From Clostridia bacterium (lineage in GTDB: Bacteria > Bacillota > DSM-521 > Neomoorellales > Neomoorellaceae), in NCBI GenBank assembly GCA_030154265.1, contig JASKKH010000003.1:1-64000 (forward strand): 64,000 nucleotides of DNA, in the 5' to 3' direction. The notes below the pieces were generated by a model that was not told where the DNA came from, ran no database searches, and saw only the letters and a list, made by a program, of their open reading frames with translations. The translations under genes and the position numbers were made by a program. Below are positions 45,513 through 62,311 of this stretch, one piece after another; positions within the stretch are counted from its first letter, which is position 1; the number at the start of each line of letters is the position of its first letter.

Positions 45513-48041
45513 ATGCCGGGGAAAAGGCAATTTATATTAAAACTATTTATAGTACCCTTTTTATTAATATTTTTACTGGCTTGTCCCCAATCGGCTATGG
45601 CGCAACCCAATTATCCACTAACGTCGGCAGAGTCCAATGAAGATACTGCTCCGGAGATAGTAAACGGCCAGACTTTTAAGGGCTTCCCCAATATTAAACA
45701 AAAACTGGAAGCTGTTCAGTTTACTGATACCCTGAACCACTGGTCATATAATTCGGTTTTAAATTTGGCAGCTCAGGATATAGTCCATGGCCGGGGAGAG
45801 GGAAGATTTGTCCCGGAAGCAAATGTAACCAGGGAAGAAGCTCTGGCCCTACTGGCACGGCTTACGGCTTTAGAGGAAAATCTTCAAAATAATACCCAAA
45901 TCCCCCCTCTTGGCCAGCCCAATCGCACTATAGCCATAGCAGCAGCCGGCGGTCTTTTATCACCAGAGGAATTTGCCTATACCAAGGAAGAGTGGAAAAA
46001 GCCTGCTGAGCGCCAGGAAGTGGTAACCTGGGTAGGCCGTGCTTTAGAACTTACACCGGTAAGCGGCGGGGTTTATCCTTACCTTGCCAGTTTTAACGAT
46101 GGACTGCTTGTAGATGAAGAAAAGGCCCCTTGGATCGAAGCTGTACTACAAGAGGACTTGGTGGCCGGAGTAAATCCGGGTGTTTTTGCCCCGCGTCGGT
46201 CAGTAAAAAGGGGCGAAATAGCAGCTTTATTATCCAGAATAGATAAAAAATTAGGTTATCGAAGGGGTGTCCAGCAGGTAGAAGGGCAGGTTACCGAACG
46301 TTTAGAAACCCATTTGACTTATGGAGAGTTATTAGTAACCTTAAGGGTAGCTACCCTTAAAGGGCCAGTCATAAACCTCGAGGTCAAGATGACACCAAGT
46401 GGTGAACCCATTAACGACTTTATCCTCTATAAAGACGGTAAGCTTGTTTTGGGTCAAAAATTAACTGTTGGTGATCCGGTTCAACTGACTCTTCAGGGAG
46501 GACATGTACTTTTAGCTCAAAGCCGTGGTGACCGTCAATCACAGACAGGCATGATTCTGGCTGTTGATGATAAAGAAATACTACTCCAGGATTACCAGGG
46601 CAATAAATACCGTTATGATGTTGGCCCTATGCTGGCTAAAAAACCTTATAGTGTCTTAGCTAGAATTATCCCTGGACAGGAGGTAACTGTAAAGCTCCAG
46701 GGTGGTGTAGTTTCAGATATAACTCCTATGGAAAGACAAAGTACCCCAGCATATATACCGGACGATAATAGAGTTTTAGATGGATATCTCAGGGAGATAA
46801 GAAGCAATAAGCTATATGTAGTTACTCCTTCGGGTAAAGAAGAAGAGGTTAAAGTAAATCACCTTACCCAGATTGCCAGGGGCGGTCAAAATTTAGATGT
46901 CATGGATTTAAAAGTAGGGGATAAGGTGAAGGTTACCTTAAACAGTTATGCTGAGGCTAAAGAGATAAAAGTAGGTAACAGTTATTCCCGGATTGACAAC
47001 ATATTAAAAGGAAAACTTGACCGTTTTAACTACCAGGACGGCAGGGTTGTTCTCCGAGGAGCTAAGGAATTCTTTTATGGTGAATGGCTGCCTGCAGAAC
47101 CCCTAAAGACTTTAAACTTAAACAGAAAAGCCACTACCGAAATTGGTGATCAATACCAAACGGGTTACAGTCAAAGAGAACCAGAAGTAATCGTAGCTGC
47201 AGTTAAAGACTCCCGTGGCGAAACCGGTATTGAAGCAGCTAAGATAAACAAAGAAACAAGGATTTATGAGGGTTTCTTGGAAGATATCTCCTTAGGTGCC
47301 GGAGAAATATTACTGGAAGGTGAGAGTAATGTATTTACTTTTAACCCTCAAAGCCTATTTGTAAAGAATAATCAAGTTGTTAATCCAGCCGACCTTGAAC
47401 AAGGAGATTATCTCTTCATAGAAGTTACACCTGCTGAAGATAGTCATCAAATCCAGATGGCCGTAACTGAAGATCTATTACCACGTTCCTGGCAGTTATA
47501 CCGCGGTGAAATAGAAACGGTAGGAAAAGAAGAATTTGAACTCGACGATGTTGAGGAAATGGGAAGTACCAAAGGTGAACAGTACGACTGGGAAGAAGCT
47601 GACGACGATGACATGGAGTTTGACCTGGCCTGGGAATCGGTCATCATAGGTGAAGATGGCCCGTTAACCAGAGACCAGTTCGCTTACAGCCGTTTTACTG
47701 AGGACTTTGAGGGCTACGAAGCCTATGTCCTGGCAAGGGATGAGGAAGCCAAAGGTATATTAGTACTACCGGAAAGTGCAACAGATGCTAACATGTTAAG
47801 TGTTGGCCGTATTCAGGAAATAGACTTAACTTCTGGTGAGATCACAGTCAATCCATTAAGAGACTGGAGTCCAGGTTATCGTAACTGGCAGAGTAGCAGT
47901 TTCCCCATGACTTTAGATGTCAATGCAGCTCTAGTTATGAAAGAGAGAGAGGTTGCTTCTTTTAGTGACCTTAAAGTTAATGATAATGTCTATATTGTCC
48001 ATGACCGAAAAAAGGGTCTGGTCTTAGTTGCCAATGATTGA
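45513..48041 (+). CDS. SLH-domain surface protein with long beta-rich region
   Basis: An 842-residue exported protein starting two bases after the IPT-repeat gene. The signal sequence contains LLAC (Cys24), which could be a lipobox, but also AMA before QP (about residue 30), a signal peptidase I site. Three SLH-like motifs (about 70-250; LNHWSYNSVLNLAAQDIVHG, EAVLQEDLVAGVNPGVFAP) should bind secondary wall polymer. The rest (about 260-842) appears to be repeated short beta domains with phrases such as DGYLREIRSNKLYVV and VGRIQEIDLTSGEITV. An acidic patch lies near residue 690. Confidence 0.85.
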   Translation: MPGKRQFILKLFIVPFLLIFLLACPQSAMAQPNYPLTSAESNEDTAPEIVNGQTFKGFPNIKQKLEAVQFTDTLNHWSYNSVLNLAAQDIVHGRGEGRFVPEANVTREEALALLARLTALEENLQNNTQIPPLGQPNRTIAIAAAGGLLSPEEFAYTKEEWKKPAERQEVVTWVGRALELTPVSGGVYPYLASFNDGLLVDEEKAPWIEAVLQEDLVAGVNPGVFAPRRSVKRGEIAALLSRIDKKLGYRRGVQQVEGQVTERLETHLTYGELLVTLRVATLKGPVINLEVKMTPSGEPINDFILYKDGKLVLGQKLTVGDPVQLTLQGGHVLLAQSRGDRQSQTGMILAVDDKEILLQDYQGNKYRYDVGPMLAKKPYSVLARIIPGQEVTVKLQGGVVSDITPMERQSTPAYIPDDNRVLDGYLREIRSNKLYVVTPSGKEEEVKVNHLTQIARGGQNLDVMDLKVGDKVKVTLNSYAEAKEIKVGNSYSRIDNILKGKLDRFNYQDGRVVLRGAKEFFYGEWLPAEPLKTLNLNRKATTEIGDQYQTGYSQREPEVIVAAVKDSRGETGIEAAKINKETRIYEGFLEDISLGAGEILLEGESNVFTFNPQSLFVKNNQVVNPADLEQGDYLFIEVTPAEDSHQIQMAVTEDLLPRSWQLYRGEIETVGKEEFELDDVEEMGSTKGEQYDWEEADDDDMEFDLAWESVIIGEDGPLTRDQFAYSRFTEDFEGYEAYVLARDEEAKGILVLPESATDANMLSVGRIQEIDLTSGEITVNPLRDWSPGYRNWQSSSFPMTLDVNAALVMKEREVASFSDLKVNDNVYIVHDRKKGLVLVAND

Positions 48042-48052
48042 GGGTGAAGGTA

Positions 48053-49606
48053 TTGCAAAAGTTTAAGTTAGAAAGGTTAGAGTCAGGTTTTGTCTGTTTC
48101 GTACTCTTTATTATCTTCCTTTTAACGTTCTCCTTACCGGCATTTGCTGAGGATTTTTACCGTTATCAGGGGGGTATTAAAGGGGAAGAAGAATATGCTG
48201 AGATGCTCTACATTACCGGTGAACCCATTCTTTTAAAAGGGACGGTACGGGAATCAACCGGCAGGTCTAGAGACGGTAACATCATGACCAACATCAGTTA
48301 CAACCTGGAAAACAAGGAAAAAGAGATCAGGCTTACCCGAAGTTTAAGCTATGTAACTACTAAAGAAGAAAGAGATAAGCAAGAAGTAAACACAACTGAG
48401 CTTGAAAGGTTTAGAGAGTCAATAAGGATAGGTAGAGACCGCTATAACTTAGAAGAGTTTCAATTTTCACGTTCAGAAATCTTAGACAACCAACCTGCTG
48501 TTACTTATAAAAGTGGTAACTGGTCGGCTCGTAAGGTTTATAGTGTGAATAGAGACATGGCTACCGTGACAGTTGAAACCTGGGGCAACAATGTCGGCTA
48601 TGATCATGCCTGGGGAAGTCAGGATACCGCCCATGAAGAAGGTGTCGTCTATTTTGATGGTAAAGTAGAGCTAGATAGGGATACCTCTGTTAACACCGAG
48701 TGGAGTGCTAGCTTCAGTCAGGACCTTTCCTATAACCGCTCTCGTTATTTAGAGTACCAGGAAAACGAACCGACGGCTATCAGTTTCTCAGGCGGCTATG
48801 TTGATAATACCTATACCACTGAATCAATCAGCTATGAAGGTAATTTCCCTGACCTGGATAACGGCGTACTTGCCAGCAGCCGCTGGAGAAAGTTGGATGG
48901 CAGTCACCAAATAAGGAGTATCCCTTCTAAAAAGAGGTTACAGGTTGCTAACCTTATAGACGTCCGTGGTCATTGGGCCGAAGAAGACATCCGTAAGCTC
49001 TACGGCCTTGGAGCCTTTGAAAAAAGGGGAAACTACTTTCACCCAACAGCTTACTTTTTCCGCGGCCAGTTAGCCAAGGCATTAGTATCGGTACTGGATT
49101 TAAAATTACCCGAACCACCTCAAGAACAACAAAGAATGACTCTATATGCTAACTACTTTGGGAATAACCAAAAGCAACAAGAACAAGAAGAGGAACCTCT
49201 TTTTGCTGATGTGTCAGTAGACGATCCGAATTATAAATATTATAAAGCCGTATATGAAGCAGGGGTCATGACCGGGACCGGCCCAGGTGTCTTTGGTGCT
49301 ACCAAAACCGTAACCAAAGTTCAGGCTATAACCATACTTATACGAGCCTTGGGCTTAGAAGGCTTGGCGCCGGCAGGTTACATCTATACAACATTTGAAG
49401 ATGACTGGCAAATACCCGACTGGGCTAGAGCCTCGGTTTATGTAGCCGAAAAAATAGGCCTCATCAAAGGTGACGAATATGGCTGCTTAAGGCCAAATGA
49501 TATCCTGACCAGAGCCGAAGCAGCTTCCTTGTTAAATAACTTCATCAGATTTTTACGAGAAGAGATGACTGTTGATTACCGTGAAAGGATATTAAATTAT
49601 AACTAA
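48053..49606 (+). CDS. Exported SLH-domain protein
   Basis: About 517 residues from TTG at 48053, chosen because GAGGGTGAAGG lies before it; a TTG at 48038 overlapping the previous stop is the alternative. A signal peptide (FVCFVLFIIFLLTFSLPAFA) precedes a novel beta-rich, Arg/Tyr-rich region. Three SLH motifs sit at the C-terminus (from about residue 300; DVRGHWAEEDIRKLYGLGA, YKYYKAVYEAGVMTGTG, WARASVYVAEKIGLIKG). It likely anchors to the wall with the preceding SLH protein as partner. The N-terminal domain is unrecognised. Confidence 0.85.
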   Translation: MQKFKLERLESGFVCFVLFIIFLLTFSLPAFAEDFYRYQGGIKGEEEYAEMLYITGEPILLKGTVRESTGRSRDGNIMTNISYNLENKEKEIRLTRSLSYVTTKEERDKQEVNTTELERFRESIRIGRDRYNLEEFQFSRSEILDNQPAVTYKSGNWSARKVYSVNRDMATVTVETWGNNVGYDHAWGSQDTAHEEGVVYFDGKVELDRDTSVNTEWSASFSQDLSYNRSRYLEYQENEPTAISFSGGYVDNTYTTESISYEGNFPDLDNGVLASSRWRKLDGSHQIRSIPSKKRLQVANLIDVRGHWAEEDIRKLYGLGAFEKRGNYFHPTAYFFRGQLAKALVSVLDLKLPEPPQEQQRMTLYANYFGNNQKQQEQEEEPLFADVSVDDPNYKYYKAVYEAGVMTGTGPGVFGATKTVTKVQAITILIRALGLEGLAPAGYIYTTFEDDWQIPDWARASVYVAEKIGLIKGDEYGCLRPNDILTRAEAASLLNNFIRFLREEMTVDYRERILNYN

Positions 49607-49756: not shown

Positions 49757-50731
49757 TTGATTATTAATCACAACATCTCAGCACTAAATACCTATCGGCA
49801 GTTGACCTACGTCAACAGCATGTCTAGCAAATCACTAGAAAAATTATCGTCAGGTTACCGTATTAATCGCGCAGGAGACGATGCAGCGGGTCTGGCAATT
49901 TCTGAGAAAATGCGTGGTCAGATTCGTGGTTTGGATCAGGCCGTGCGCAATGCTCAAGACGGCATTTCGTTAATCCAGACGGCAGAAGGCGCTCTGAACG
50001 AGACCCACAGTATTCTCCAGAGAATGCGGGAGCTGGCAACCCAGGCTGCAAATGACACCAACACATTAGAAGATCGTATACAAATTCAAAAAGAAATCAA
50101 CCAGCTCACCGAAGAAATTGATCGCATTGGTATAACAACAGAGTTTAACACGCAAAGGCTTCTTGACGGCTCTTACAGTGGTAGTCTCCAGATTGGTGCT
50201 AACGAGGGGCAGGAAATTGGCCTCGCGATTGGAGACATGCGGGCAATCAAAATTTCTGGTGGGACTTTTGTTGCAGATGGATTACAAGTCGCTAATAGTG
50301 GCGCTAAATGGATGGCTGTGGACAGTAATGGTAGTTTGCAAAGCGGTGTTGGTTCGGGAAGCGGCTTAAATGTTGTTAAACTTCATTACGTAGCAGCAGA
50401 TGGTAGTATTACCGAAAAGAAAGGTGCTGCTATAAGCGTATTGACACAGAGTGGTGCAAGTGCGGCCATTACGACTTTTAATAACGCTATCGAAAAGGTT
50501 TCTACTGAGCGTTCCAAGCTTGGCGCTGTCCAAAACCGTTTGGAACACACCATAAATAACTTAAGTGTTGCTTCAGAAAATCTTACGGCAGCTGAGTCCC
50601 GCATTCGTGACGTGGATATGGCCAAAGAAATGATGGCGTTTGCTAAGAATAACATCATTAGCCAAGCAGCAACTGCCATGCTTGCCCAGGCAAACCAGCA
50701 ACCGCAGCAAGTTCTTTCATTACTCAGATAA
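49757..50731 (+). CDS. hag: Flagellin
   Basis: The filament subunit, 324 residues. The N-terminal helices read MIINHNISALNTYRQL and SGYRINRAGDDAAGLAISEK. The C-terminal helices read AESRIRDVDMAKEMMAFAKN and end QQPQQVLSLLR; both halves of the D0/D1 core are complete. The central variable part (about 150-230) is short and rich in Gly, Ser, Ala and Thr, offering O-glycosylation sites. TTG start with AAGGGGG. It has its own sigma-28 promoter and terminator. Probable target of the sugar pathway downstream. Confidence 0.97.
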   Translation: MIINHNISALNTYRQLTYVNSMSSKSLEKLSSGYRINRAGDDAAGLAISEKMRGQIRGLDQAVRNAQDGISLIQTAEGALNETHSILQRMRELATQAANDTNTLEDRIQIQKEINQLTEEIDRIGITTEFNTQRLLDGSYSGSLQIGANEGQEIGLAIGDMRAIKISGGTFVADGLQVANSGAKWMAVDSNGSLQSGVGSGSGLNVVKLHYVAADGSITEKKGAAISVLTQSGASAAITTFNNAIEKVSTERSKLGAVQNRLEHTINNLSVASENLTAAESRIRDVDMAKEMMAFAKNNIISQAATAMLAQANQQPQQVLSLLR

Positions 50732-50746
50732 AAATACTAAAGTTTC

Positions 50747-50779
50747 GGAGACATTAGCGCAGCTAATGTCTCCTTTTTG
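50747..50779 (+). terminator. Flagellin terminator
   Basis: GGAGACATTAGC (50747-50758) pairs perfectly with GCTAATGTCTCC (50762-50773) and is followed by five T residues. Strong intrinsic terminator 16 bases after the stop. Confidence 0.95.
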
Positions 50780-50834: not shown

Positions 50835-50910
50835 AAATGATAAAGGTAAATAAGAAAATCTTTATTTTGAGATAGGTAGCGATAGAGATTTTATTGGGGA
50901 GGTGGAAAGA

Positions 50911-51507
50911 GTGCAATTGATACTTGATGGGGAATTGGTTATGAACCAGGAAATTAATGTGGGGAGAATTATTCAAGCTATAGAAGATTATTTACGCCAA
51001 TCTTTAAATAAAGGTAGAGTTTTATTCAGTTGTCGCATTAATGATATGGAAGTTGAAGATCCGATTGAAACTCTACTTATAAATGATAAGGAAAATAATA
51101 TTAAAACAGTAGAAATAGTAACAAAGGATAAAATTACTTTGATATATGAGACAGTTGAGACAGCTATACAATATAATGTTAAATTAGTTTCTGCAATCAA
51201 AAATATAGCTACTGATATTAATACCGGTAAAGATTTTGATCAGAAAATTATGTTACAGATTATAGAAGGTCTGGAGTGGCTTTTATCAGTTTGTATTAGG
51301 TTGGAAAATCAAAAAAATCTACTAACTTTTAATAATGTGGAATCATTTGTCGATATAGTTGAGGATATAAAGAAAGCATTGAATAGTCTTGTTGAGGCTA
51401 TGGAAATTGGAGATATGGTTACTTTGTCGGATATTTTTGAGTATGAATTACTTGAAAAGTTGGAACGAATAGGCGAAATATTACAATCTTATCATGCTCA
51501 AATATAA
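50911..51507 (+). CDS. Unrecognised 198-aa protein at the head of the glycosylation island
   Basis: GTG at 50911 is used because GGGGAGGTGG ends about 6 bases upstream; GTG at 50902 overlaps that site. The first ~75 residues look like mixed strands (LILDGELVMNQEINVG, KTVEIVTKDKITLIYETVE). The rest is helical and acidic with regular Leu/Ile spacing. No signal peptide or membrane segment. It lies between flagellin and maf, behind a sigma-28-like promoter, so a role in flagellin handling or glycosylation is likely but unproven. No family recognised. Confidence 0.8.
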   Translation: MQLILDGELVMNQEINVGRIIQAIEDYLRQSLNKGRVLFSCRINDMEVEDPIETLLINDKENNIKTVEIVTKDKITLIYETVETAIQYNVKLVSAIKNIATDINTGKDFDQKIMLQIIEGLEWLLSVCIRLENQKNLLTFNNVESFVDIVEDIKKALNSLVEAMEIGDMVTLSDIFEYELLEKLERIGEILQSYHAQI

Positions 51508-51520
51508 AGAGGTTTGTAAT

Positions 51521-53410
51521 ATGAATTTGATTGATAACATTAATGTTTTGAAAAGACTCAATCCTAATTTGTGGAAAAAATTGAGAGAAGTTAGTGAAAA
51601 ATTAGAACAGGATCAAAGATTTAAAATTATAGAGGCAAAAAGTGGAGTCCCTACCTTAGAAGTTGAATATCAGGGGAAACATTTGCCTCTTCATAGCAGG
51701 TACAACCCTGAAAAAGAAGCTGAAAAATTTATAAACCAGTTTGACCAAACTGAAGTTACAAAATATAAACATGTTTTCTTTTATGGCGTAGGCATGGGTT
51801 ACCATATTACAGCTTTTATGAATAAGTATCCCAATATTAATTTTTCACTTTATGAACCTAACCCAACTGTATTTTATAAGTTTTTATCTTATAGATCATT
51901 AAAAGATTTTCCAATAAAAAATTTAAAACATATATTTGTTGAACAGGAACCTAATGACGTACAAAAATTTGCAAGCGAATTCTTAGATACAATTAATGAG
52001 GAAATATTATTCGTAATTTTACCAAGTTATGAACGGGTGTTTAAAGAGGATTATAAAAGGTTCGTTAAAGATTTCCTTCAAACTTTGAAAGACAAAAGAA
52101 GTTCACTTCATACTAATTTGGGATATCAAAAACGTTGGATAATAAATAGTTTAATTAATTTTCCTGAAGTGCTAAAAACACCAAACATCTTGCATGATAT
52201 TGATAAAGAAAATTTTATGAATAAACCTGCTTTGTTAGTCGCAGCGGGGCCTTCTCTCGATGATGAGATTGAAAATATACGCTATATTAAAGGAAATAAT
52301 CTAGCATATATTTTTTCAATAGGTTCTGCTATCAATGCCTTAATTGAACATAATATTTACCCTAATGCTATATGCTCATATGACCCGTCAGAGAGAAATC
52401 AAGTAGTCTTTACTAAAATGATTGATAAAAATATTACCTCAATACCTCTTATATTTGGCAGTAGTATAGGTTTTGAAAGTTTACAGAAGTACCCGGGTAA
52501 AGATAAATTTCATATGATTACAAGCCAAGATACTGTTTCAAATTATTTCTTAAAAAGAAAAGACAATAATAAGATAAAAGTAGTCTTGGATGCACCTTCA
52601 ATAGCTGTTTTGACTCTGGATGTTTTATATAAATTAGGCTGTAATCCTATCATCCTAGTTGGTCAAAATTTAGGTTATAGGAAAGATAAATTTTATGCTA
52701 AAGGTATATCTTATAAACACCAATCAACAGAAATTACAGAGGAACAAAAAAGAAATTTAATCGAAGTTGAAGATGTCTATGGTGGAAGGATTTATTCTGA
52801 TGAATCATTTTTAAGAATGAAAAAACAAATGGAGTATTATATTGAGTTTTACAATAACGTTGAAATTATCAACACTACAAAAGGTGGAGCAAAGATAGAA
52901 GGCACCTCTTTTATGGAATTAGCAAATGTTATAAAAAATAAACTAAAACACAAGGTTAATTTTGATTGCTTTAATATTATTACTGAAAACACTTATGATA
53001 TAAAGTATGTTCAAGGAAAAATTGAGGAAATGGAAAAGCAACTTAAAGCAATAATAAAAATTATTAATGATTTAACCCGTTGTTTACAAAAAATCTATAA
53101 ACTGGCAGAAGAAAATAAATTTCAAAAGTTAGAGGATATTTTTAAGAAACTTGATAAATTATTTTCAAAGATGAATAAGAATGATTTTTACAAAGTCTTT
53201 TTACAACCAATGAATCGGGTTCAATATGAAATTCTAAAAAAGAATGTTTCGACTGTACGATTTGAAAAAGATATGGCTTGGAAGGCGCGAAAAGTTGTTC
53301 AAGAGTTTGGTAAATTTATCCAAGTGTGTCAAAAAGATATTCAATTTGTTAATCCTATTTTCAAAAGGGTATCAGTACAGGTTTTAGATTACATAAATGA
53401 GTCCCTTTAG
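51521..53410 (+). CDS. Maf-type motility accessory factor, putative nonulosonic acid transferase
   Basis: A 629-residue DUF115/MAF_flag10 protein. Maf proteins are the leading candidates for moving CMP-pseudaminic or legionaminic acid onto Ser/Thr of flagellin in the cytoplasm. The N-terminal domain (HVFFYGVGMGYHITAFMNKY, about 85-105) is followed by the DUF115 core (KPALLVAAGPSLDDEIENI from about residue 243; ICSYDPSERNQ; PIILVGQNLGY). A helical C-terminal domain completes it. ATG at 51521 follows AAGAGG and overlaps nothing; the earlier ATG lies in the previous gene. Markedly AT-rich codons. Confidence 0.88.
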   Translation: MNLIDNINVLKRLNPNLWKKLREVSEKLEQDQRFKIIEAKSGVPTLEVEYQGKHLPLHSRYNPEKEAEKFINQFDQTEVTKYKHVFFYGVGMGYHITAFMNKYPNINFSLYEPNPTVFYKFLSYRSLKDFPIKNLKHIFVEQEPNDVQKFASEFLDTINEEILFVILPSYERVFKEDYKRFVKDFLQTLKDKRSSLHTNLGYQKRWIINSLINFPEVLKTPNILHDIDKENFMNKPALLVAAGPSLDDEIENIRYIKGNNLAYIFSIGSAINALIEHNIYPNAICSYDPSERNQVVFTKMIDKNITSIPLIFGSSIGFESLQKYPGKDKFHMITSQDTVSNYFLKRKDNNKIKVVLDAPSIAVLTLDVLYKLGCNPIILVGQNLGYRKDKFYAKGISYKHQSTEITEEQKRNLIEVEDVYGGRIYSDESFLRMKKQMEYYIEFYNNVEIINTTKGGAKIEGTSFMELANVIKNKLKHKVNFDCFNIITENTYDIKYVQGKIEEMEKQLKAIIKIINDLTRCLQKIYKLAEENKFQKLEDIFKKLDKLFSKMNKNDFYKVFLQPMNRVQYEILKKNVSTVRFEKDMAWKARKVVQEFGKFIQVCQKDIQFVNPIFKRVSVQVLDYINESL

Positions 53411-53454
53411 GTTAGAGTTAATTAGCAATAGTTTGGAATAATGGGGGAATAACC

Positions 53455-54843
53455 TTGAGGATATTAATAGTAATTTATGATAATAATTCATATATTTCAT
53501 GGTTTCCGCAAGGACTTGCATATATTGCTTCTGTATGTCGAAATGCAGGCCACGAAGTTATTATTTATAATCAAGATGTATATCATTGGCCTGAAAGTCA
53601 TTTGTTGAATTTATTAAATAGAGAAAAATTTGATGTAGTTGCAGTAAGCGTTGTAGGTGGGTACTACCAATATAGGAAATTGCTCAAAATATCAGAAGCA
53701 ATAAATAACGCAAAGTATAGGCCTTTTTATATGATAGGGGGTCATGGACCTGCACCAGAACCAGAATATTTTTTAAAGAAAACTAAAGCGGATGTTGTTG
53801 TAATTGGTGAAGGAGAAATAACTGTATTAGAAATTTTGGAGGCAATTAAAGGAGAGAGAGAATTATCTTCAATAGAAGGAATAGCATATTTAGAAAATGG
53901 GAAATGTATTCAAACTCCAAGACGTAAATTGATTAGTGATATAGATAAAATCCCTTTTCCTGCTTATGATTTATTTCCTATGGATCATTATACATTATTA
54001 AGAATGCCTCACATTGAAAACTCTGAGAGGTGCATGCCTGTTTTATCAGGTAGAGGGTGTACGTTTAAGTGTAATTTCTGTTATAGGATGGATCCAGGTT
54101 TTAGGGCAAGGTCAGCTGAAAATATTATTGAAGAGATAGAATTGTTAAAAAAAGATTATAATGTTAGTTATATAGTTTTTTCTGATGAATTGTTAATGAG
54201 TTCTGTAGAAAGGACGATAGAACTTTGTGATAAATTTATGAAGGCAAAATTAAATGTCAAGTGGTCCTGTAATGGTAGACTAAATTATGCTAAACCAGAA
54301 GTATTAAAATTAATGAAAGAAGCAGGATGCGTTTTTATTAATTATGGGATTGAATCTATGGATCAACAAATCTTAAATGTTATGAATAAAGGGCTTACAG
54401 TTAAACAAATATACGATGGTATTGAGAATACATTAAAGGTAGGAATAAGTCCAGGATGTAATATTATTTTTGGAAATATTGGCGAAACGGAAGAGGCATT
54501 AAAGCTTGGAGTTGATTTCTTATTAAATTATGATGACCATTCTCAAATGAGAACAATTAGACCGGTTACTCCTTATCCTGGATCACCGCTATATTATTAT
54601 GCTATCGAAAAGGGATTGTTAAAAGACTGTGAAGACTTTTATGAAAATAAACATTTAAATTCCGATTTATTATCTGTCAATTTTACTAATTTAAGTGATG
54701 AAGATTTTCATAAAGCCTTATTCGAAGCTAATAAACAACTTATAGATAATTATTTTAATGCTCAAAGAAAAAAAGTTATAGACAAAGCTAAAAAACTATA
54801 TTTTGAGAAAGATGTTACCTTTAGAGGGTTTAGACAGACATAA
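53455..54843 (+). CDS. B12-binding-domain radical SAM protein
   Basis: A 462-residue enzyme with a cobalamin-binding-type Rossmann N-terminus (about 1-135; FPQGLAYIASVCRNAGHEV, GGHGPAPEPEYFL, ADVVVIGEGE). It lacks the DxHxxG motif, as is usual for class B radical SAM enzymes. The radical SAM core carries the 4Fe-4S cluster motif at Cys202, Cys206 and Cys209 (GCTFKCNFCYR). A C-terminal segment follows (about 385-462). Class B members often methylate unreactive carbons. Between maf and legG, it probably modifies the sugar, flagellin or a lipid. TTG start behind GGGGGAA. Confidence 0.88.
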   Translation: MRILIVIYDNNSYISWFPQGLAYIASVCRNAGHEVIIYNQDVYHWPESHLLNLLNREKFDVVAVSVVGGYYQYRKLLKISEAINNAKYRPFYMIGGHGPAPEPEYFLKKTKADVVVIGEGEITVLEILEAIKGERELSSIEGIAYLENGKCIQTPRRKLISDIDKIPFPAYDLFPMDHYTLLRMPHIENSERCMPVLSGRGCTFKCNFCYRMDPGFRARSAENIIEEIELLKKDYNVSYIVFSDELLMSSVERTIELCDKFMKAKLNVKWSCNGRLNYAKPEVLKLMKEAGCVFINYGIESMDQQILNVMNKGLTVKQIYDGIENTLKVGISPGCNIIFGNIGETEEALKLGVDFLLNYDDHSQMRTIRPVTPYPGSPLYYYAIEKGLLKDCEDFYENKHLNSDLLSVNFTNLSDEDFHKALFEANKQLIDNYFNAQRKKVIDKAKKLYFEKDVTFRGFRQT

Positions 54844-54948
54844 CTAAAGTAGAATAAAAAAGAAAAACTTTATAGCCTTAATTAATAAAATTAAGCTTAT
54901 TGAAAAGTAGCCCACTTTTTTATGCAGTATAAGTATGGGGGGACTATT

Positions 54949-56136
54949 GTGGGCATACGAAAAATTTGTATAGTAACAGGCACACGTGCAGAATACGGTT
55001 TACTTTATTGGTTAATGAAAGAAGTGCAAGCAGATGATGAGCTTGAATTACAAGTTATAGCTACCGGTATGCATTTGTCACCCGAATTTGGTTTAACTTA
55101 TAAATTAATTGAACAAGATGGCTTTAGAATTGATGAAAAAGTAGAAATGTTATTATCTAGTGATACACCTGTAGGTATTACTAAATCTATTGGTCTAGCA
55201 ACTATTGGTTTCGCTGATGCATTAGCTCGATTAAAACCCGATATCATCGTATTACTGGGTGATCGTTATGAAATTTTGGCAGCTGCTCAAGCAGCTATGG
55301 TAGCAAGAATCCCAATTGCTCATATACATGGCGGAGAAACTACAGAAGGAGTAATTGATGAAGCAATAAGACATTCAGTTACTAAGATGTCACAATTACA
55401 TTTTGTATCCGCAGAGCCTTATAAAAAAAGAGTAATACAGCTGGGCGAAAACCCGGAAAGAGTTTATAATTTTGGTGCCATTGGGTTAGATAATATTACA
55501 TATTTATCATTATTAGATCGTAATAACTTTGAACAGTCAATAGGTTTTAAACTTGGTGAAAAAAATTTTATGGTTACTTATCATCCAGTGACTTTAAAGA
55601 AAAACAATACAAAAAGAGCTATGTTGGCAATTTTTAATGCTTTAGATAAATTTCCTGAAGCAAAAATAATATTTACAAAAACCAATTCAGATACAGAGGG
55701 TAGAATTATTAATCAAATGATTGAAGAATATGCAGCAAAAAGAAACGAGCGTGTCAAAGTTTTTACTTCTTTAGGTCAGTTACGTTATTTAAGCGCTCTA
55801 AAACATGTTGATGTAGTTATAGGGAACTCATCTAGTGGATTGATTGAAGCACCGTTCTTTAAAAAGCCGACTGTGAATATTGGTGAAAGGCAGCGTGGTC
55901 GATTAAAAGCTTCTTCTGTAATTGATTGTAAGGAAAACACAGAGGAAATAGTAGCTGCTATTAATAGAGCATTATCTCCTGAATTTCAGCAATTGCTTTC
56001 AGATTTAGACTTACCTTATGGTAAAGGGAATGTCTCTTATAAAATTAAAGAATGTCTTAAAAATATAGACTTAACAAATATCTTGATGAAAAAGTTCTAT
56101 GACATAACATACAAGGATGAAGCAATTATAACCTAA
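54949..56136 (+). CDS. legG: NDP-GlcNAc-type 2-epimerase, hydrolysing (LegG/NeuC family)
   Basis: Hydrolyses and epimerises an NDP-2,4-diacetamido-trideoxyhexose to the free manno sugar, the substrate of LegI. The 395-residue product from GTG 54949 (GGGGGGAC before it) starts with GIRKICIVTGTRAEYGLL, followed by IVLLGDRYEILAAAQAA, HIHGGETTEGVIDEAIRH and GNSSSGLIEAPFF, all typical of NeuC-type epimerases. In legionaminic acid routes this step acts on a GDP sugar. UDP-GlcNAc hydrolysis for sialic acid is the alternative, but legB, legC and an acetyltransferase nearby favour LegG. Confidence 0.85.
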   Translation: MGIRKICIVTGTRAEYGLLYWLMKEVQADDELELQVIATGMHLSPEFGLTYKLIEQDGFRIDEKVEMLLSSDTPVGITKSIGLATIGFADALARLKPDIIVLLGDRYEILAAAQAAMVARIPIAHIHGGETTEGVIDEAIRHSVTKMSQLHFVSAEPYKKRVIQLGENPERVYNFGAIGLDNITYLSLLDRNNFEQSIGFKLGEKNFMVTYHPVTLKKNNTKRAMLAIFNALDKFPEAKIIFTKTNSDTEGRIINQMIEEYAAKRNERVKVFTSLGQLRYLSALKHVDVVIGNSSSGLIEAPFFKKPTVNIGERQRGRLKASSVIDCKENTEEIVAAINRALSPEFQQLLSDLDLPYGKGNVSYKIKECLKNIDLTNILMKKFYDITYKDEAIIT

Positions 56137-56451: not shown

Positions 56452-57534
56452 GTGATAAATAGAGTATTTATAATTGCTGAAGCTGGCGTTAACCATAACG
56501 GTTCTATTGATATGGCTACTAAATTAATTGATGTTGCAGCAAAAGCTGGTGCCGATGCAGTAAAGTTTCAAACGTTCAAAGCAGATAATCTTGTTAGTAA
56601 AAAAGCTCCAAAGGCCGAATATCAAACAAAAACAACAGATGCATCAGAAAGTCAGTATGAAATGATTAAACGATTAGAATTAGATGAAAAAGCACATGAA
56701 AAACTGCTTGAACATTGTAAAAGACATGATATTGAATTTTTATCTACACCTTTTGATTTAAAAAGTGCAGATATGTTAGCTTCCGACCTTAATATAAAAA
56801 AAATAAAAATATCCTCAGGAGATATTACTAATGCTCCATTATTGTTGCAGGCAGCAAAAACAGGTAAACCAGTGATACTCTCAACTGGCATGAGTAGACT
56901 TAGTGATATTGAGATGGCTTTAGGAGTATTAGCTTTTGGTTACATATCTATAGACAAAAAACCTTCAATAAAATCATTTAAAAAAGCCTATATGTCTGAG
57001 GAAGGGCAAAAGGCCCTAAAAAATAATGTAATTTTACTTCATTGTACAACAGAATACCCTGCACCATATGAAGAAGTAAACCTTAAGGCAATGGATACAT
57101 TAAGAACTGCTTTTGATTTACCTGTTGGGCTATCGGATCATACTACCGGTATTGCTGTTCCAATAGCTGCTGTAGCAAGGGGAGCAGTTGTAATTGAAAA
57201 ACATTTTACTTTAGACAAGAATCTGCCAGGTCCTGATCATGAGGCATCACTTGAACCAGAGGAATTGGAACAAATGGTAAAATCTATTCGCCATGTAGAA
57301 AAGTCGTTAGGTTCACACCTAAAGACACCTGCCCCTTCTGAAGTTAAAAATATAAAGGTGGTTAGGAAAAGCTTAGTTGCTTCCAGAGACATAAAAAAAG
57401 GCGAAATTTTCACGGAAGAGAACCTTACTGTTAAGCGTCCGGGTAATGGTGTATCGCCAATGTATTATTGGGATTGGCTTGGTAAAGCTGCAACAAAGGA
57501 CTATTGCAAGGATGAAGTGATAACTTATGAATAA
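56452..57534 (+). CDS. legI: N-acetylneuraminate/legionaminate synthase (NeuB/LegI family)
   Basis: Condenses the free 2,4-diacetamido-trideoxy-mannose with phosphoenolpyruvate to legionaminic acid. The 360-residue protein has the NeuB TIM barrel (IIAEAGVNHNGSIDMATKLI, AVKFQTFKADNLV, ILSTGMSRLSDIEMAL, HCTTEYPAPYEEVNL, VGLSDHTTG, IEKHFTLDKNLPGPDHEASL). A C-terminal SAF/antifreeze-like domain runs from about residue 295. GTG start behind GAAGGAGA. Distinguishing NeuB, LegI and PseI by eye is not firm; the pathway context gives LegI. Confidence 0.88.
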   Translation: MINRVFIIAEAGVNHNGSIDMATKLIDVAAKAGADAVKFQTFKADNLVSKKAPKAEYQTKTTDASESQYEMIKRLELDEKAHEKLLEHCKRHDIEFLSTPFDLKSADMLASDLNIKKIKISSGDITNAPLLLQAAKTGKPVILSTGMSRLSDIEMALGVLAFGYISIDKKPSIKSFKKAYMSEEGQKALKNNVILLHCTTEYPAPYEEVNLKAMDTLRTAFDLPVGLSDHTTGIAVPIAAVARGAVVIEKHFTLDKNLPGPDHEASLEPEELEQMVKSIRHVEKSLGSHLKTPAPSEVKNIKVVRKSLVASRDIKKGEIFTEENLTVKRPGNGVSPMYYWDWLGKAATKDYCKDEVITYE

Positions 57535-58150
57535 ACCTGTGATTATCATTGGCGGTGGTGGTCACGCTAAGGTATTAATTGACTCTCTTAAAATTCTCAA
57601 GATTAGAATAATTGGCATAACGGAAAATTCAAAAAAGGATCATATATCAGAAGTAAAAATTATAGGTTATGATGACATTATATTAAATTACTCAACTGAT
57701 GAGATTGAATTAGTAAATGGCTTAGGTTCTATAGCAACATCAAAGCGAAGGCAATTGTTTGAGACTTTTAAAATGCAAGGTTATAACTTTAAAAGTGTTA
57801 TCCACCCGTCCACAGTGATTGCACAAGATGTAGATATGGCAGAAGGAGTACAAATTATGGCTGGTGCTGTTATTCAAACAGGCACAAGCATAGGTGATAA
57901 TACAATTATAAATACAAAGGCTTCTGTAGATCATGATTGTAAAATAGGGGCACATGTACATATAGCACCTGGGGCTACTTTATCAGGTGGTGTGCAAGTT
58001 GGCGAAGGCTGCCATATTGGAACTGGTGCTACAATAATTCAAGGTGTTAACATAGGGAAAGACAGTATAATAGGAGCTGGTGCAGTAGTACTAAATGACG
58101 TACCGGCAGGTGTAACTGTGGTTGGAGTCCCGGCAAAGGTGGTGACATAA
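57527..58150 (+). CDS. legH: NeuD/PglD-family sugar acetyltransferase (LegH role)
   Basis: A left-handed beta-helix acyltransferase of 207 residues: an N-terminal Rossmann-like substrate domain (PVIIIGGGGHAKVLIDSL) followed by hexapeptide repeats from about residue 100 (for example VQIMAGAVIQTGTSIGDNTI). The conserved catalytic His is probably in ASVDHDCKIGAHVH. The likely job is N-acetylation of the 4-amino group made by LegC. O-acetylation of the finished acid, as by NeuD, is the alternative. Overlaps legI by 8 bases. Confidence 0.82.
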   Translation: MNKPVIIIGGGGHAKVLIDSLKILKIRIIGITENSKKDHISEVKIIGYDDIILNYSTDEIELVNGLGSIATSKRRQLFETFKMQGYNFKSVIHPSTVIAQDVDMAEGVQIMAGAVIQTGTSIGDNTIINTKASVDHDCKIGAHVHIAPGATLSGGVQVGEGCHIGTGATIIQGVNIGKDSIIGAGAVVLNDVPAGVTVVGVPAKVVT

Positions 58151-59211
58151 TGAAAGACTGGAAACGAATTTTAATACTGCCTTCCACACCTATTATTAAG
58201 GCCATTAAAATTATTGACGCTGGTGCCATGCAAATCGCTCTTGTTGTTAATGAGAATGAACAATTACTGGGAACAGTGACAGATGGTGATGTACGTCGTG
58301 GGATTTTAAAGGGCGTACCTTTAGAGGCACCAGTTAAAGAAATAATGAATTGTAACCCAACAGTAGTTAAAAAGTATGAAAAACATAGCAAGATATTAGC
58401 TACCATGAAAAGAAAGAGCTTTTCACAAATACCTATGGTGGATGAAAAAGGCCACATTGTAGATTTGATAATGCTAAAAGATTTTATTACACCTAAATGT
58501 CGCAATAACATTGTAGTAATAATGGCAGGCGGTCTTGGTACTCGTCTTAGGCCTATGACTAACCAATGTCCAAAGCCACTTTTAAAAGTGGGTGGTAAGC
58601 CTTTATTAGAAACAATTATAGAAAATTTTATTGAATATGGTTTTAACAATTTTTATTTGTCAGTTAACTATAAAGCTGATATGATAAAAAGTTATTTTGG
58701 TGACGGTTCTAATTGGGGTGTTAGCATTAAATATATTCATGAAGACAAGTGTATGGGAACAGCTGGTGCTTTGAGTCTATTACCAGAAAAGCCTAAAGAT
58801 ACGATCATAGTTATTAATGGTGACTTATTAACCAAAGTAAACTTTCAACAATTTTTAGATTTTCATTGTGATAATAAAGCTGATGCTACAATGTGTGTGC
58901 GCGAATATAATTTTCAGGTTCCCTATGGCGTTGTTAAATCAGATAAACATCGCCTGATAGGAATAGAAGAAAAACCGGTCAAACAATTTTTTATTAGTGC
59001 AGGCATATATGCTCTTGAACCGAGAGTTCTCGATTTTATTCCTAATAATTCGTATTTGGACATGCCTAACTTATTTGAATTGCTTATAAAAAATAAATTA
59101 GAAACAATTGTTTTTCCCATTAGAGAGTATTGGATGGATATTGGGCACATGGATGATTTTGAACGGGCCAATAGTGAGTTTGCTGAGGTGTTTTTAAATG
59201 ATAAAAGGTAA
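58150..59211 (+). CDS. ptmE: CBS-domain nucleotidyltransferase (PtmE-like)
   Basis: A 353-residue fusion of two CBS domains (about 10-115; LLGTVTDGDVRRGILKG, FSQIPMVDEKGHIVDLIML) and a sugar-nucleotide transferase (about 120-353) with signature MAGGLGTRLRPMT and VINGDLLTKV. It resembles Campylobacter PtmE, which makes the GDP-linked glucosamine precursor for legionaminic acid. The CBS pair may sense nucleotides. Its start overlaps the previous stop by one base and its 3' end overlaps legF by 14. The nucleotide used (GTP) is inferred. Confidence 0.85.
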   Translation: MKDWKRILILPSTPIIKAIKIIDAGAMQIALVVNENEQLLGTVTDGDVRRGILKGVPLEAPVKEIMNCNPTVVKKYEKHSKILATMKRKSFSQIPMVDEKGHIVDLIMLKDFITPKCRNNIVVIMAGGLGTRLRPMTNQCPKPLLKVGGKPLLETIIENFIEYGFNNFYLSVNYKADMIKSYFGDGSNWGVSIKYIHEDKCMGTAGALSLLPEKPKDTIIVINGDLLTKVNFQQFLDFHCDNKADATMCVREYNFQVPYGVVKSDKHRLIGIEEKPVKQFFISAGIYALEPRVLDFIPNNSYLDMPNLFELLIKNKLETIVFPIREYWMDIGHMDDFERANSEFAEVFLNDKR

Positions 59212-59902
59212 AAGTATACTTGCAATAATTCCAGCCCGTGGCGGGTCTAAAGGTGTGCCACGTAAAAATATCAGGAAGGTAGCCGGTAAACCTCTTATTG
59301 CTTGGACTATTGAAGAAGCAAAAAAATCTAAATTTATAGACAGGTTAGTCGTTTCTTCAGAAGATAAAGAAATAATTAATATAGCTCGACTATGGGGGTG
59401 CGAAGCGCCTTTTGTTAGGCCAGCTGAACTAGCACGAGATGACACACCTGGGATAGAACCAGTATTACATGCAATAAAAATGCTTTCTGGATACGATTAT
59501 GTAGTATTATTGCAGCCTACATCACCTTTACGTACTGTAGAAGATATTGATGGGTGTATAGAAAAATGTATAGGCAGAAATGCAAGTGCATGTGTATCTG
59601 TTACTAAACCAGATAAAAGTCCATATTGGATGTATGTATTAGATTCCAAGGATTTAATGAACCCATTGATTAAATCAAATAATATTCCTGGCAGACGACA
59701 GGATTTACCAAAGGTATATGCTTTAAATGGTGCTGTTTATGTAGGAAAAAGTGATTATTTAATAAAAAATAAATCATTCTTAACCAAAGAAACAATTGGA
59801 TACATAATGCCCCAAAACAGATCAATAGATATAGACTCAGAAGAAGATTTAATGTTTTGCGAACTATTATTGAACTCTAAAAGAAATGTCAAAGATCGAT
59901 AG
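59198..59902 (+). CDS. legF: CMP-nonulosonate cytidylyltransferase (LegF/NeuA/PtmB family)
   Basis: Activates legionaminic acid with CTP to the CMP sugar used by the transferase. The 234-residue product has the family opening ILAIIPARGGSKGVPRKNIR, then LLQPTSPLRTVEDIDGCIEK and NGAVYVGKSDYL, and ends in the IDIDSEEDLMFCE region that completes the active site. No fused C-terminal phosphatase. ATG inside the ptmE 3' end. Confidence 0.9.
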   Translation: MIKGKSILAIIPARGGSKGVPRKNIRKVAGKPLIAWTIEEAKKSKFIDRLVVSSEDKEIINIARLWGCEAPFVRPAELARDDTPGIEPVLHAIKMLSGYDYVVLLQPTSPLRTVEDIDGCIEKCIGRNASACVSVTKPDKSPYWMYVLDSKDLMNPLIKSNNIPGRRQDLPKVYALNGAVYVGKSDYLIKNKSFLTKETIGYIMPQNRSIDIDSEEDLMFCELLLNSKRNVKDR

Positions 59903-60030: not shown

Positions 60031-60207
60031 GTGTTTAAAACGTCGACTTTTTACTTTGAGCGACATTGGTGTACCATACAATGGTACTTTTTTTCATTTT
60101 TTAAAAAGTTCATTAAAGAAGGTGCTAAAAGACTTCCATTTGCAGAAGTAATCACCAAAAAATGTATACGGTTAATATTAGCGGAATTTCTAGGAGTGAA
60201 AGCATGA
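60031..60207 (+). CDS. Possible 58-aa ORF coupled to legB
   Basis: GTG at 60031 has AGGAG 8 bases upstream, and the frame stays open until a TGA that overlaps the legB ATG. The product starts MFKTSTFYFERHWC and is basic and aromatic; the last third (AKRLPFAEVITKKCIR) looks more protein-like. It runs through a hairpin with seven T residues, which argues against translation of the whole frame. It may be the tail of a broken gene. Confidence 0.22.
   Translation: MFKTSTFYFERHWCTIQWYFFSFFKKFIKEGAKRLPFAEVITKKCIRLILAEFLGVKA
60071..60094 (+). terminator. Hairpin with T-run upstream of legB
   Basis: GTACCAT (60071-60077) pairs with ATGGTAC (60081-60087) around ACA, followed by seven T residues. It fits an intrinsic terminator for the legG-legF part. 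That would leave legB and legC needing their own promoter or read-through. Confidence 0.65.
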
Positions 60208-61181
60208 ATTTAAAAGGCAAAAAAATATTAGTAACGGGAGCAGCAGGTTTTATAGGTTCGCACTTAGCGGAAGAACTGGTGAAAAAAGGAGCCAAAGTTA
60301 GAGCCTTAGTAAGATACAATTCTAAAAACAACTGGGGATGGTTAGAAACCTCTAAATTTTTGGATGAAATTGAAATATATATGGGTGATTTGCGGGATTA
60401 CGATAGTGTGAAGGATGCGATGAAAGATGTTGAGATTGTTTTTCATTTAGGTGCATTGATAGGAATTCCTTATTCGTATATTTCACCTTTAGCATATATA
60501 CGTACCAATGTTGAGGGGACATATAACGTACTGCAAAGTGCCAGGGATAATGTTCAACGAGTAGTAGTTACTTCAACAAGTGAAGTTTATGGTACTGCTC
60601 AATATACACCTATAGACGAAAAACACCCGTTACATCCACAGTCTCCTTATGCGGCTACAAAAGTTAGTGCTGATCAATTAGCCTTAAGTTTTTACCGTTC
60701 TTTTGATTTACCGGTTAGTATTATTAGACCATTTAACACCTATGGTCCAAGGCAATCAGCTCGTGCAATAATTCCCACGATAATCTCACAAGCACTGACT
60801 GGAGATATTCTAAAACTAGGTTCTTTAGAACCGGTTAGAGACTTAACTTATGTATTGGATACAGTTTCCGGTTTTATCGAGGTGGGCTTATCAGATACAG
60901 CTGTTGGGCAAGTGATAAATATTGGGGCCAACGAGGTGGTATCTATAGGGGATTTAGTTAAAATCGTTAGCAAATTATTAGATAAAGAGTTGCTTGTAGA
61001 AACGGATCCCAAACGAGTAAGACCGAAAAAGAGTGAGGTTATGAAATTAGTTTGTGATAATACAAAGGCTTTAGAGAACGGATGGAAACCAAGGTATTCG
61101 CTTAAAGATGGTTTACTAGAAACTATTAACTGGATAAATGACAATATAGAGTGTTTTAAACCTTATATCTATAACGTGTAG
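60204..61181 (+). CDS. legB: NDP-GlcNAc 4,6-dehydratase, short SDR family (LegB)
   Basis: Removes water from NDP-GlcNAc to give the 4-keto-6-deoxy sugar that LegC aminates. The 325-residue product from ATG 60204 (TAGGAGTG before it) has the NAD motif VTGAAGFIGSH (from residue 10), the S-x-x-E-VYG segment (TSTSEVYG), catalytic SPYAATK and RPFNTYGPRQSARAIIPTII. The short soluble form with ROS/GPRQSARA-type features matches LegB rather than membrane-bound PglF. Other nucleotide-sugar dehydratases remain possible. Confidence 0.85.
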   Translation: MNLKGKKILVTGAAGFIGSHLAEELVKKGAKVRALVRYNSKNNWGWLETSKFLDEIEIYMGDLRDYDSVKDAMKDVEIVFHLGALIGIPYSYISPLAYIRTNVEGTYNVLQSARDNVQRVVVTSTSEVYGTAQYTPIDEKHPLHPQSPYAATKVSADQLALSFYRSFDLPVSIIRPFNTYGPRQSARAIIPTIISQALTGDILKLGSLEPVRDLTYVLDTVSGFIEVGLSDTAVGQVINIGANEVVSIGDLVKIVSKLLDKELLVETDPKRVRPKKSEVMKLVCDNTKALENGWKPRYSLKDGLLETINWINDNIECFKPYIYNV

Positions 61182-61192
61182 GTGAAAAAACC

Positions 61193-62311
61193 TTGAAAAT
61201 AGAATTGGATGCACCTAATCTTGGACAATTAGAAAAGAAAAAGTTATTAGAGGCAATAGACCTTAACTTCATATCGACAGCTGGACCATTTGTTGCAGAA
61301 TTTGAAGAAAAATTTGCCAAATACGTAGGGGCCAAGTATGCAATTTCAACTCAAAGCGGAACAGCAGCTTTACATATTTCGCTATACGAATTAGGTATTG
61401 GTCCAGGTGACGAGGTTATTTTGCCCGTTTTAACGTTTGTAGCTACAGTAAATCCCATACTTTATGTTGGAGCTACCCCTGTATTTGCAGATGTAGATAG
61501 AGAGACTTGGAATATCAATCCTGAAGAAATAAGAAAAGTTATAAGTACAAAGACAAAAGCGATAATACTTGTGCATCTTTATGGAAATCCATGTCAGATG
61601 GACGAAATTATGGATATTGCTAATGAACATGGGCTATATGTTATAGAGGATGCTACAGAAAGTTTAGGTGCCACATTTAAGGGAAAAATGACAGGTACCT
61701 TTGGAGATATAGGTTGTTTTAGTTTTAATGGAAATAAAGTAATTACCACAGGTGGTGGTGGTATGGTAGTTACTGATAATAAAGAGAAAGCGGATCATAT
61801 TAAATTTTTAGTTAACCAAGCTAGAGATAATTCAAAGGGATATTATCATCCAGAATTAGGTTTTAATTATAGAATGACCAATTTAGAAGCAGCATTAGGG
61901 TTAGCACAATTAAAAAAGGTTGATGAATTTATAAGCAAGAAACGTCAATTTGCCAAAATATATCAACAGGAACTCAGTAGTATTAAGGGTATTTGTTTTC
62001 AACAAGAGTATCCAAAAGCTCAAAGTAATTTTTGGTTAACTTCAGTTACAATTGAGGATTTACCAATTTCTAAATTGCAGAAAACATTACAAAAATATTC
62101 ACCAGCTATTCCATCAAGAAGAATATTTATGCCATTAAGTGAGTTTCCGTACCTGAGGCAGTATGCAAAAGATACCTATACTAATGCTTATGAGATTTAT
62201 AATAAAGGAATAAACTTACCCAGTTCTACTTTAAATGACATTAATGCTATTTTTACTACAGCAAAAGTTTTGAGAGAGTGTAAAATAAGCGGTGAAAGCC
62301 TTCCGAAATAA
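61193..62311 (+). CDS. legC: PLP-dependent sugar aminotransferase (LegC; DegT/DnrJ/EryC1)
   Basis: Adds the 4-amino group to the LegB product using glutamate. The 372-residue protein shows YAISTQSGTAALHISL, GDEVILPVLTFVATVNPIL, VIEDATESLGATFKG and the PLP-lysine region FSFNGNKVITTGGGGM. TTG start 11 bases after legB behind AGGTGAAAA. It ends the sugar block; the next gene, fliD, has its own promoter. Confidence 0.9.
   Translation: MKIELDAPNLGQLEKKKLLEAIDLNFISTAGPFVAEFEEKFAKYVGAKYAISTQSGTAALHISLYELGIGPGDEVILPVLTFVATVNPILYVGATPVFADVDRETWNINPEEIRKVISTKTKAIILVHLYGNPCQMDEIMDIANEHGLYVIEDATESLGATFKGKMTGTFGDIGCFSFNGNKVITTGGGGMVVTDNKEKADHIKFLVNQARDNSKGYYHPELGFNYRMTNLEAALGLAQLKKVDEFISKKRQFAKIYQQELSSIKGICFQQEYPKAQSNFWLTSVTIEDLPISKLQKTLQKYSPAIPSRRIFMPLSEFPYLRQYAKDTYTNAYEIYNKGINLPSSTLNDINAIFTTAKVLRECKISGESLPK

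Follow-up and report, generated by a model that had tools for sequence, protein, structure and literature searches.

The stretch of DNA analysed in the present study (64,000 nucleotides of contig JASKKH010000003.1 of a Clostridia bacterium, below called the window) encodes a B12-type radical SAM (rSAM) enzyme. Within its known superfamily, the enzyme forms a new subfamily, for which a new role is predicted. The constant partner of this family, in bacteria as well as in archaea, is the synthesis of nonulosonic acids (NulOs), and not the Maf glycosyltransferase or flagellin. It is quite likely that the enzyme tailors the NulO itself, and it probably makes a modified sialic-acid-like sugar that has not yet been described. 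C-methylation is the single most likely reaction, with about an even chance of being the true one.

The enzyme comprises 462 amino acids and is encoded at 53455..54843 of the plus strand. The reading frame begins with TTG, a GGGGG candidate ribosome-binding site is located at 53443-53447, and the orthologues start at the same residue. The Pfam search revealed an N-terminal B12-binding (Rossmann) domain (53491..53835, +; PF02310, residues 13-127, 65.6 bits with a cut-off of 32.1), and a radical SAM core containing RGCTFKCNFCYR (54046..54504, +; PF04055, residues 198-350, 86.6 bits with a cut-off of 29.5). The motif RGCTFKCNFC of the core is of the CX3CX2C type, and its cysteines C202, C206 and C209 are invariant in the 54 aligned orthologues. 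The core and motif place the protein in the radical SAM superfamily, and the B12 domain preceding the core places it among the Class 1 cobalamin-dependent enzymes, so that it is a B12-type radical SAM enzyme, predicted to bind cobalamin, in line with the first-pass annotation, which gave the same three cysteines. The assumption of the same annotation that the cell uses cobalamin also holds, as methylmalonyl-CoA mutase and MeaB are encoded in the window and other B12-binding proteins elsewhere in the genome.

The AlphaFold model of the protein (mean pLDDT 94.2, pTM 0.91) matches known structures of B12-radical SAM enzymes along most of the chain. Foldseek retrieved AprD4 (TM 0.76) and, with E values of 1e-17 to 1e-21, OxsB, MgmA, TsrM and CysS; a profile search returned the same set and TokK. 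TokK, TsrM, CysS, OxsB and MgmA share with the window protein the N-terminal B12 domain, the CX3CX2C core and the C-terminal helical part, but they are only 16-20% identical to it and have no NulO gene context. The loop following strand 3 of the B12 domain lies under the cobalt in known structures (PMC13331322). This loop reads S65-V-V-G-G-Y-Y-Q-Y73 in the window protein, and nearly all orthologues have GGYYQY or AGYYQY here, whereas the corrin side is occupied by Trp in TokK, Arg in TsrM and an Asn-water pair in OxsB. No His ligand motif was found in the B12 domain of the window protein, and the position of OxsB Asn186 is hydrophobic in the family. No clear counterpart is seen of the Trp that TokK, and judging by alignment probably also CysS and ThnK, places under the cobalt; depending on gap placement, the TokK Trp aligns with Y71 and the CysS Trp with G69. 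This residue defines the TokK/CysS/ThnK-type subgroup only, and the window protein falls outside it. The invariant residues R211, R217, R275, R366, R369, N296, N336, N402, N409, R457 and R460 might be suited to a sugar that carries a carboxylate or phosphate group.

The NCBIfam profiles did not assign the window protein to any named radical SAM family at cut-off. The best-scoring profiles, matched over most of the length, were HpnJ (TIGR03471; 161.3 bits, cut-off 577.6) and BchE (TIGR02026; 144.6 bits, cut-off 481.35), with the ladderane-type family at 122 bits, also below cut-off. Lower scores were given by the AprD4-type model NF033070 (82.1 bits, cut-off 500) and by TIGR04295, B12_rSAM_oligo, whose name refers to oligosaccharide (80.1 bits, cut-off 400). 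The ranking of these scores is weak evidence, because an unrelated B12-rSAM paralogue reaches the same HpnJ score (163.5) and all values are far below cut-off. The radical SAM 1,2-diol dehydratase AprD4 (6fd2) is the top structural match (rmsd 3.5, similar size) and also the best PDB sequence match, although it shows CX3CX3C in the alignment where the window protein has CX3CX2C. AprD4 acts on an aminosugar and requires the reductase AprD3, while no AprD3-like reductase was found in the window operon. AprD4-type dehydration is unlikely because the 5,7-diamido-3,5,7,9-tetradeoxy NulOs, by their established structure, have no vicinal diol; together with the lack of an AprD3 partner, this disfavours AprD4-like dehydration or deoxygenation as the function.

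The gene is a part of a flagellar gene set, flanked by flagellin and fliD-like genes. The flagellin (49757..50731, +; PF00669 and PF00700) is the presumed glycan acceptor. Between fliC and the maf-rSAM-leg run lies a terminator-like stem-loop (50747..50773, +; a consensus match only). The run is preceded by a gene for a 201-aa protein (50902..51507, +) that overlaps maf and has no Pfam or NCBIfam match; similar reading frames stand before maf in two other loci (L009 and L017), and the product is possibly a GlfM-like candidate. The Maf-type flagellin glycosyltransferase (638 aa; 51494..53410, +) matches PF01973, the MptE-like model found in Maf proteins, with 123.6 bits, and the Maf N-terminal model PF20157 with 22.1 bits, just below the cut-off of 23.5. 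Downstream of the rSAM gene are encoded a LegG/NeuC-type hydrolysing 2-epimerase (54922..56136, +; TIGR03568, 502 bits, cut-off 236), a LegI/NeuB-type nonulosonate synthase with a SAF domain (56452..57534, +; TIGR03569, 519 bits, above cut-off; PF03102, PF08666), a NeuD/PglD-type acetyltransferase as the LegH candidate (57527..58150, +; TIGR03570, 231.6 bits), a PtmE-like protein of the sugar-1-P guanylyltransferase type with CBS and nucleotidyltransferase parts (58150..59211, +; PF00483 and two CBS), a LegF-like CMP-nonulosonate synthetase (59198..59902, +; PF02348; 169.8 bits with PseF TIGR03584, below the cut-off of 205.7), a LegB 4,6-dehydratase (60162..61181, +; TIGR04180, 458.8 bits, slightly below the cut-off of 475) and a LegC aminotransferase (61193..62311, +; TIGR04181, 422.6 bits, above the cut-off of 420). 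Judging from these genes, the operon is predicted to encode a legionaminic-acid-type (Leg-type) pathway.

The position of the enzyme between the Maf transferase and LegG, noted in the first-pass annotation, is borne out by the PF01973 gene upstream and the TIGR03568 gene downstream. The spacers are 44 bp on the maf side and 78 bp on the legG side, and the consensus scan found no terminator-like site between the three genes; a second such site, again a consensus match only, lies between the LegF and LegB genes. Matches in the promoter scan were no more than expected by chance. The island has a low GC3, and the rSAM gene (0.19) is as low as the rest. Between the flagellar genes and fliC, the window also encodes a 2039-aa protein with 18 TIG domains (39391-45510), followed by two SLH-domain proteins (45513-48041 and 48038-49606).

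In 84,980 species genomes, a scan with six short peptide patterns taken from the window protein found 73 orthologue loci, 72 of them at 58-79% identity and one at 40%. Such patterns pick out close orthologues preferentially, so that other contexts may be underrepresented and conservation may look higher than it is. The mean column identity over the 54 aligned orthologues was 71%. The carriers are Bacteria of more than a dozen phyla, including Bacillota, Omnitrophota, Nitrospirota, Planctomycetota, Myxococcota, Pseudomonadota, Elusimicrobiota, Margulisiibacteriota and Campylobacterota, and six archaeal genomes. The NulO-linked B12-rSAM group, defined here by full-length identity above 55% and a GYYQY loop, includes the window protein. 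Neighbouring genes were called mechanically, clustered, and named by similarity to window genes and by Pfam. Metagenome bins, where contig misassignment is possible, account for many of the carriers, but the isolate genomes (Desulfoscipio, Desulfosporosinus, Frackibacter and Clostridiaceae 1XD21-72) support the same pattern. Cultured carriers include Desulfoscipio geothermicus DSM 3669, whose orthologue is 79% identical and lies in a maf-rSAM operon (L009), and Desulfosporosinus sp. Tol-M.

In 61 of the 73 loci, a NeuB or NeuA homologue is encoded no more than 10 kb from the rSAM gene; for the 40 loci with at least 7 kb of flank on both sides, the count is 37. Where no such neighbour was seen, 11 of 12 genomes carry NeuB elsewhere, and in one locus (L051) NeuB is about 11 kb away, just beyond the flank taken. 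LegI of the window lies 1.6 kb downstream of the enzyme. As a baseline, 115 of the 399 genomes taken from the phylum (Bacillota-type), or 29%, contain NeuB (PF03102). A Bacillota-type control placed NeuB 0.8-9.3 kb from the orthologue in all seven carrier genomes, versus two of nine more distant B12-rSAM genes with NeuB within 10 kb (Fisher p = 0.003). LegG or PtmE was found in 47 of the 73 loci, NeuB homologues being of other types elsewhere. The run rSAM-LegG-LegI-NeuD-PtmE-LegF has the same order in a Gallionella locus, where LegG, LegI, NeuD and PtmE are 57-67% identical to those of the window and no Maf was seen in the stretch covered (L011). Hopanoid or bacteriochlorophyll genes were not seen in the orthologue loci.

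The association with flagella is much looser. The maf-radical SAM pair, whose absence from all other genomes was among the refuting observations named in the first-pass annotation, was found elsewhere, Maf being present in 12 of the 73 loci; flagellin (FliC) is present in 6. On the orthologue tree, the Maf label needs nine changes, at least six of them forced by well supported branches, and Maf pairing therefore arose several times. Bacterial flagellin is absent from 12 of the 14 tested carrier genomes lacking a flagellin gene at the rSAM locus; a gene may be missing from an incomplete bin, which is an unlikely cause for 12 of 14. The flagellin-glycosylation context suggested earlier is thus correct for the window locus, but for only a minority of the family, whose conserved partner is the NulO pathway. 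A general role as a flagellin modifier was rejected on the same counts, and modification of the flagellin protein, the other target considered earlier, is unlikely as the role of the family since most of the non-flagellar carriers tested have no flagellin.

The 2-Mb genome to which the window belongs contains three NeuB genes in three separate legionaminic-acid-type loci. The other two, located on contigs C12 (L099) and C5 (L100), contain homologues of LegG, LegI, PtmE, LegF and LegC, and no rSAM relative was found in either. The earlier statement that known legionaminic acid synthesis needs no such enzyme agrees with this, and the replacement of a missing Leg step was rejected as a function; the enzyme is an add-on, because two other Leg loci of the same genome do without it. 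It seems that Leg synthesis runs without the rSAM enzyme and that the flagellar locus encodes an additional, dedicated one.

No rSAM relative above about 30% identity was found in the window's own order and class, which indicates that the gene was acquired. The ten matches listed in the plasmid search were all below 30% identity. The orthologue tree, whose bootstrap had not fully settled, mixes phyla, with Gallionella and Sulfuricella among the three rows closest to the window gene (the starred group); this indicates wide horizontal transfer. The orthologue of Marinospirillum perlucidum F3212 (L063:10001-11389) is probably a pseudogene because of two in-frame stops, at the positions of W16 and Y359.

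Orthology, linkage to NulO genes and independence from flagellin together point to a NulO as the substrate. Since the upstream genes vary and NeuB/NeuA are common, this would be the free NulO, its CMP form or a NulO glycoside, and not an upstream nucleotide sugar. In the window, the flagellar operon (maf, rSAM, legG, legI, legH-like, ptmE, legF, legB, legC) would yield CMP-legionaminic acid, which the rSAM enzyme might turn into a variant that Maf then attaches to flagellin. A first SAM would methylate cob(I)alamin; a second would give the 5'-deoxyadenosyl radical, which would abstract hydrogen from an unactivated carbon, either in the sugar or in an N-acyl group; and methylcobalamin would deliver the methyl, with a predicted residue mass of 330.143 instead of 316.127. 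Most characterised members of the B12-radical SAM class methylate carbon, and we know of no sequence signature separating methylases from non-methylases in it. The +14 Da shift is a plausible prediction and not a deduction, because the nearest named families (HpnJ, BchE, ladderane-type) are non-methylases and none is reached at cut-off. The missing counterpart of the TokK-type Trp, and AprD4 as the best structural and PDB sequence match, also speak against this reading. Taken as a whole, the reading as a NulO-tailoring C-methylase, made from sequence, stands slightly short of an even chance. GenK and GenD1 of gentamicin synthesis are B12-radical SAM C-methylases of sugar carbons (PMC5461906); they belong to antibiotic pathways, and the window enzyme is likened to them by reaction, not by sequence. 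PtmH and PtmG are, as is proposed for the window enzyme, optional Leg modifiers encoded in flagellar Leg loci (PMC13317340), but they are not radical SAM or B12 enzymes, PtmH being an N-methyltransferase.

A non-methylating reaction on the same NulO is a possible, though less probable, alternative. Rearrangement, ring contraction, epimerisation, oxidation or deamination would come into question, with cobalamin guiding the substrate radical, a role that has been proposed for it in OxsB. Two of the three top-scoring families, and also ladderane synthase, are given as non-methylases in PMC13142503. HpnJ has a glucosamine-bearing lipid as its substrate (PMC12583986), and the substrate of AprD4, the closest match by fold, is an aminosugar; however, the profile scores are all below cut-off, that of HpnJ far below it and no higher than that of the unrelated paralogue, and the AprD4 reaction would have neither a target in 5,7-diamido NulOs nor its reductase in the operon. 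It is rather unlikely that the enzyme leaves the carbon skeleton unchanged and alters the N-acyl group or makes an unusual acyl donor. The N-acyl groups of NulOs do vary, as in N-methyl-acetimidoyl and N-methyl-glutamyl Leg (PMC13317340), and a NeuD-type acetyltransferase belongs to the same window gene set, with homologues in 26 of the 73 loci, but NeuD is also the ordinary LegH step, and the annotated clusters show no acyl-activating enzyme conserved alongside the rSAM gene.

Methylation of a carbon of flagellin or another glycan-carrying protein appears very improbable. The gene is adjacent to maf, both belonging to an operon-like run that follows fliC, and related enzymes such as MgmA modify proteins (PMC11796369); against this stand the rarity of FliC and Maf at the loci, the carriers devoid of flagellin and the repeated origin of the Maf contexts on the tree. 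Equally remote is a passenger gene, functionally unrelated to NulO, in horizontally moving surface-glycan islands. Its scatter across phyla, the low GC3 shared with the island and the carrier with two in-frame stops would fit such a passenger, but the rSAM protein is better kept (58-79% identity, in a search that favoured close orthologues) than the adjacent LegI, LegG and LegF (medians of 50, 49 and 42% identity to the window proteins), and NeuB/NeuA linkage in 61 of 73 loci is far above the genome-level NeuB baseline of 29%.

Searches of the open-access literature found no paper linking radical SAM with nonulosonic acid and none joining nonulosonic acid with C-methyl; radical SAM, sialic acid, glycan and cobalamin-dependent were not found together, and the sole match for radical SAM and flagellin glycosylation was a Rickettsia genome paper. 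To our knowledge, all known NulO tailoring proceeds by ordinary acyl, amidino, O- or N-methyl chemistry. Sialic-acid-like sugars decide how hosts, phages and neighbours perceive cell surfaces and flagella. The odds are roughly balanced that this widespread B12-rSAM family produces a NulO new to chemistry (C-branched, extended in its chain or rearranged in its skeleton), which some Bacillota attach to flagellin and which other surface glycans of bacteria and archaea contain. A radical enzyme linked to the NulO pathway in many phyla and two domains would imply that a part of the sugar family has been missed, and would account for the separate full Leg pathway kept for flagella.

Several other genes were observed in comparable surroundings. 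Distant B12-rSAM genes (31-32% identity) are located in the Maf-NulO loci L097 (G320 C31, 9944-11341) and L098 (G390 C6, 9032-10810), one with flagellin and a PseI/PseB-like set and the other with Leg genes; flagellar NulO loci may have taken up B12-rSAM enzymes from several subfamilies. A second, different B12-binding rSAM protein is encoded immediately upstream of the orthologue, or else within its NulO locus, in L064 (8418-10004) and L080 (8406-10004), and also in L049, L062 and L076. Near the orthologue in L060, L068, L069, L071, L077 and L019, short NeuB, NeuA, a class III aminotransferase and a glyoxalase-fold protein recur as a set, often with a SPASM radical SAM protein, which suggests another, unnamed NulO-like pathway. 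A protein of about 640 aa without a Pfam match, possibly a glycosyltransferase, follows the orthologue in L043, L064, L073, L080, L038 and L029.
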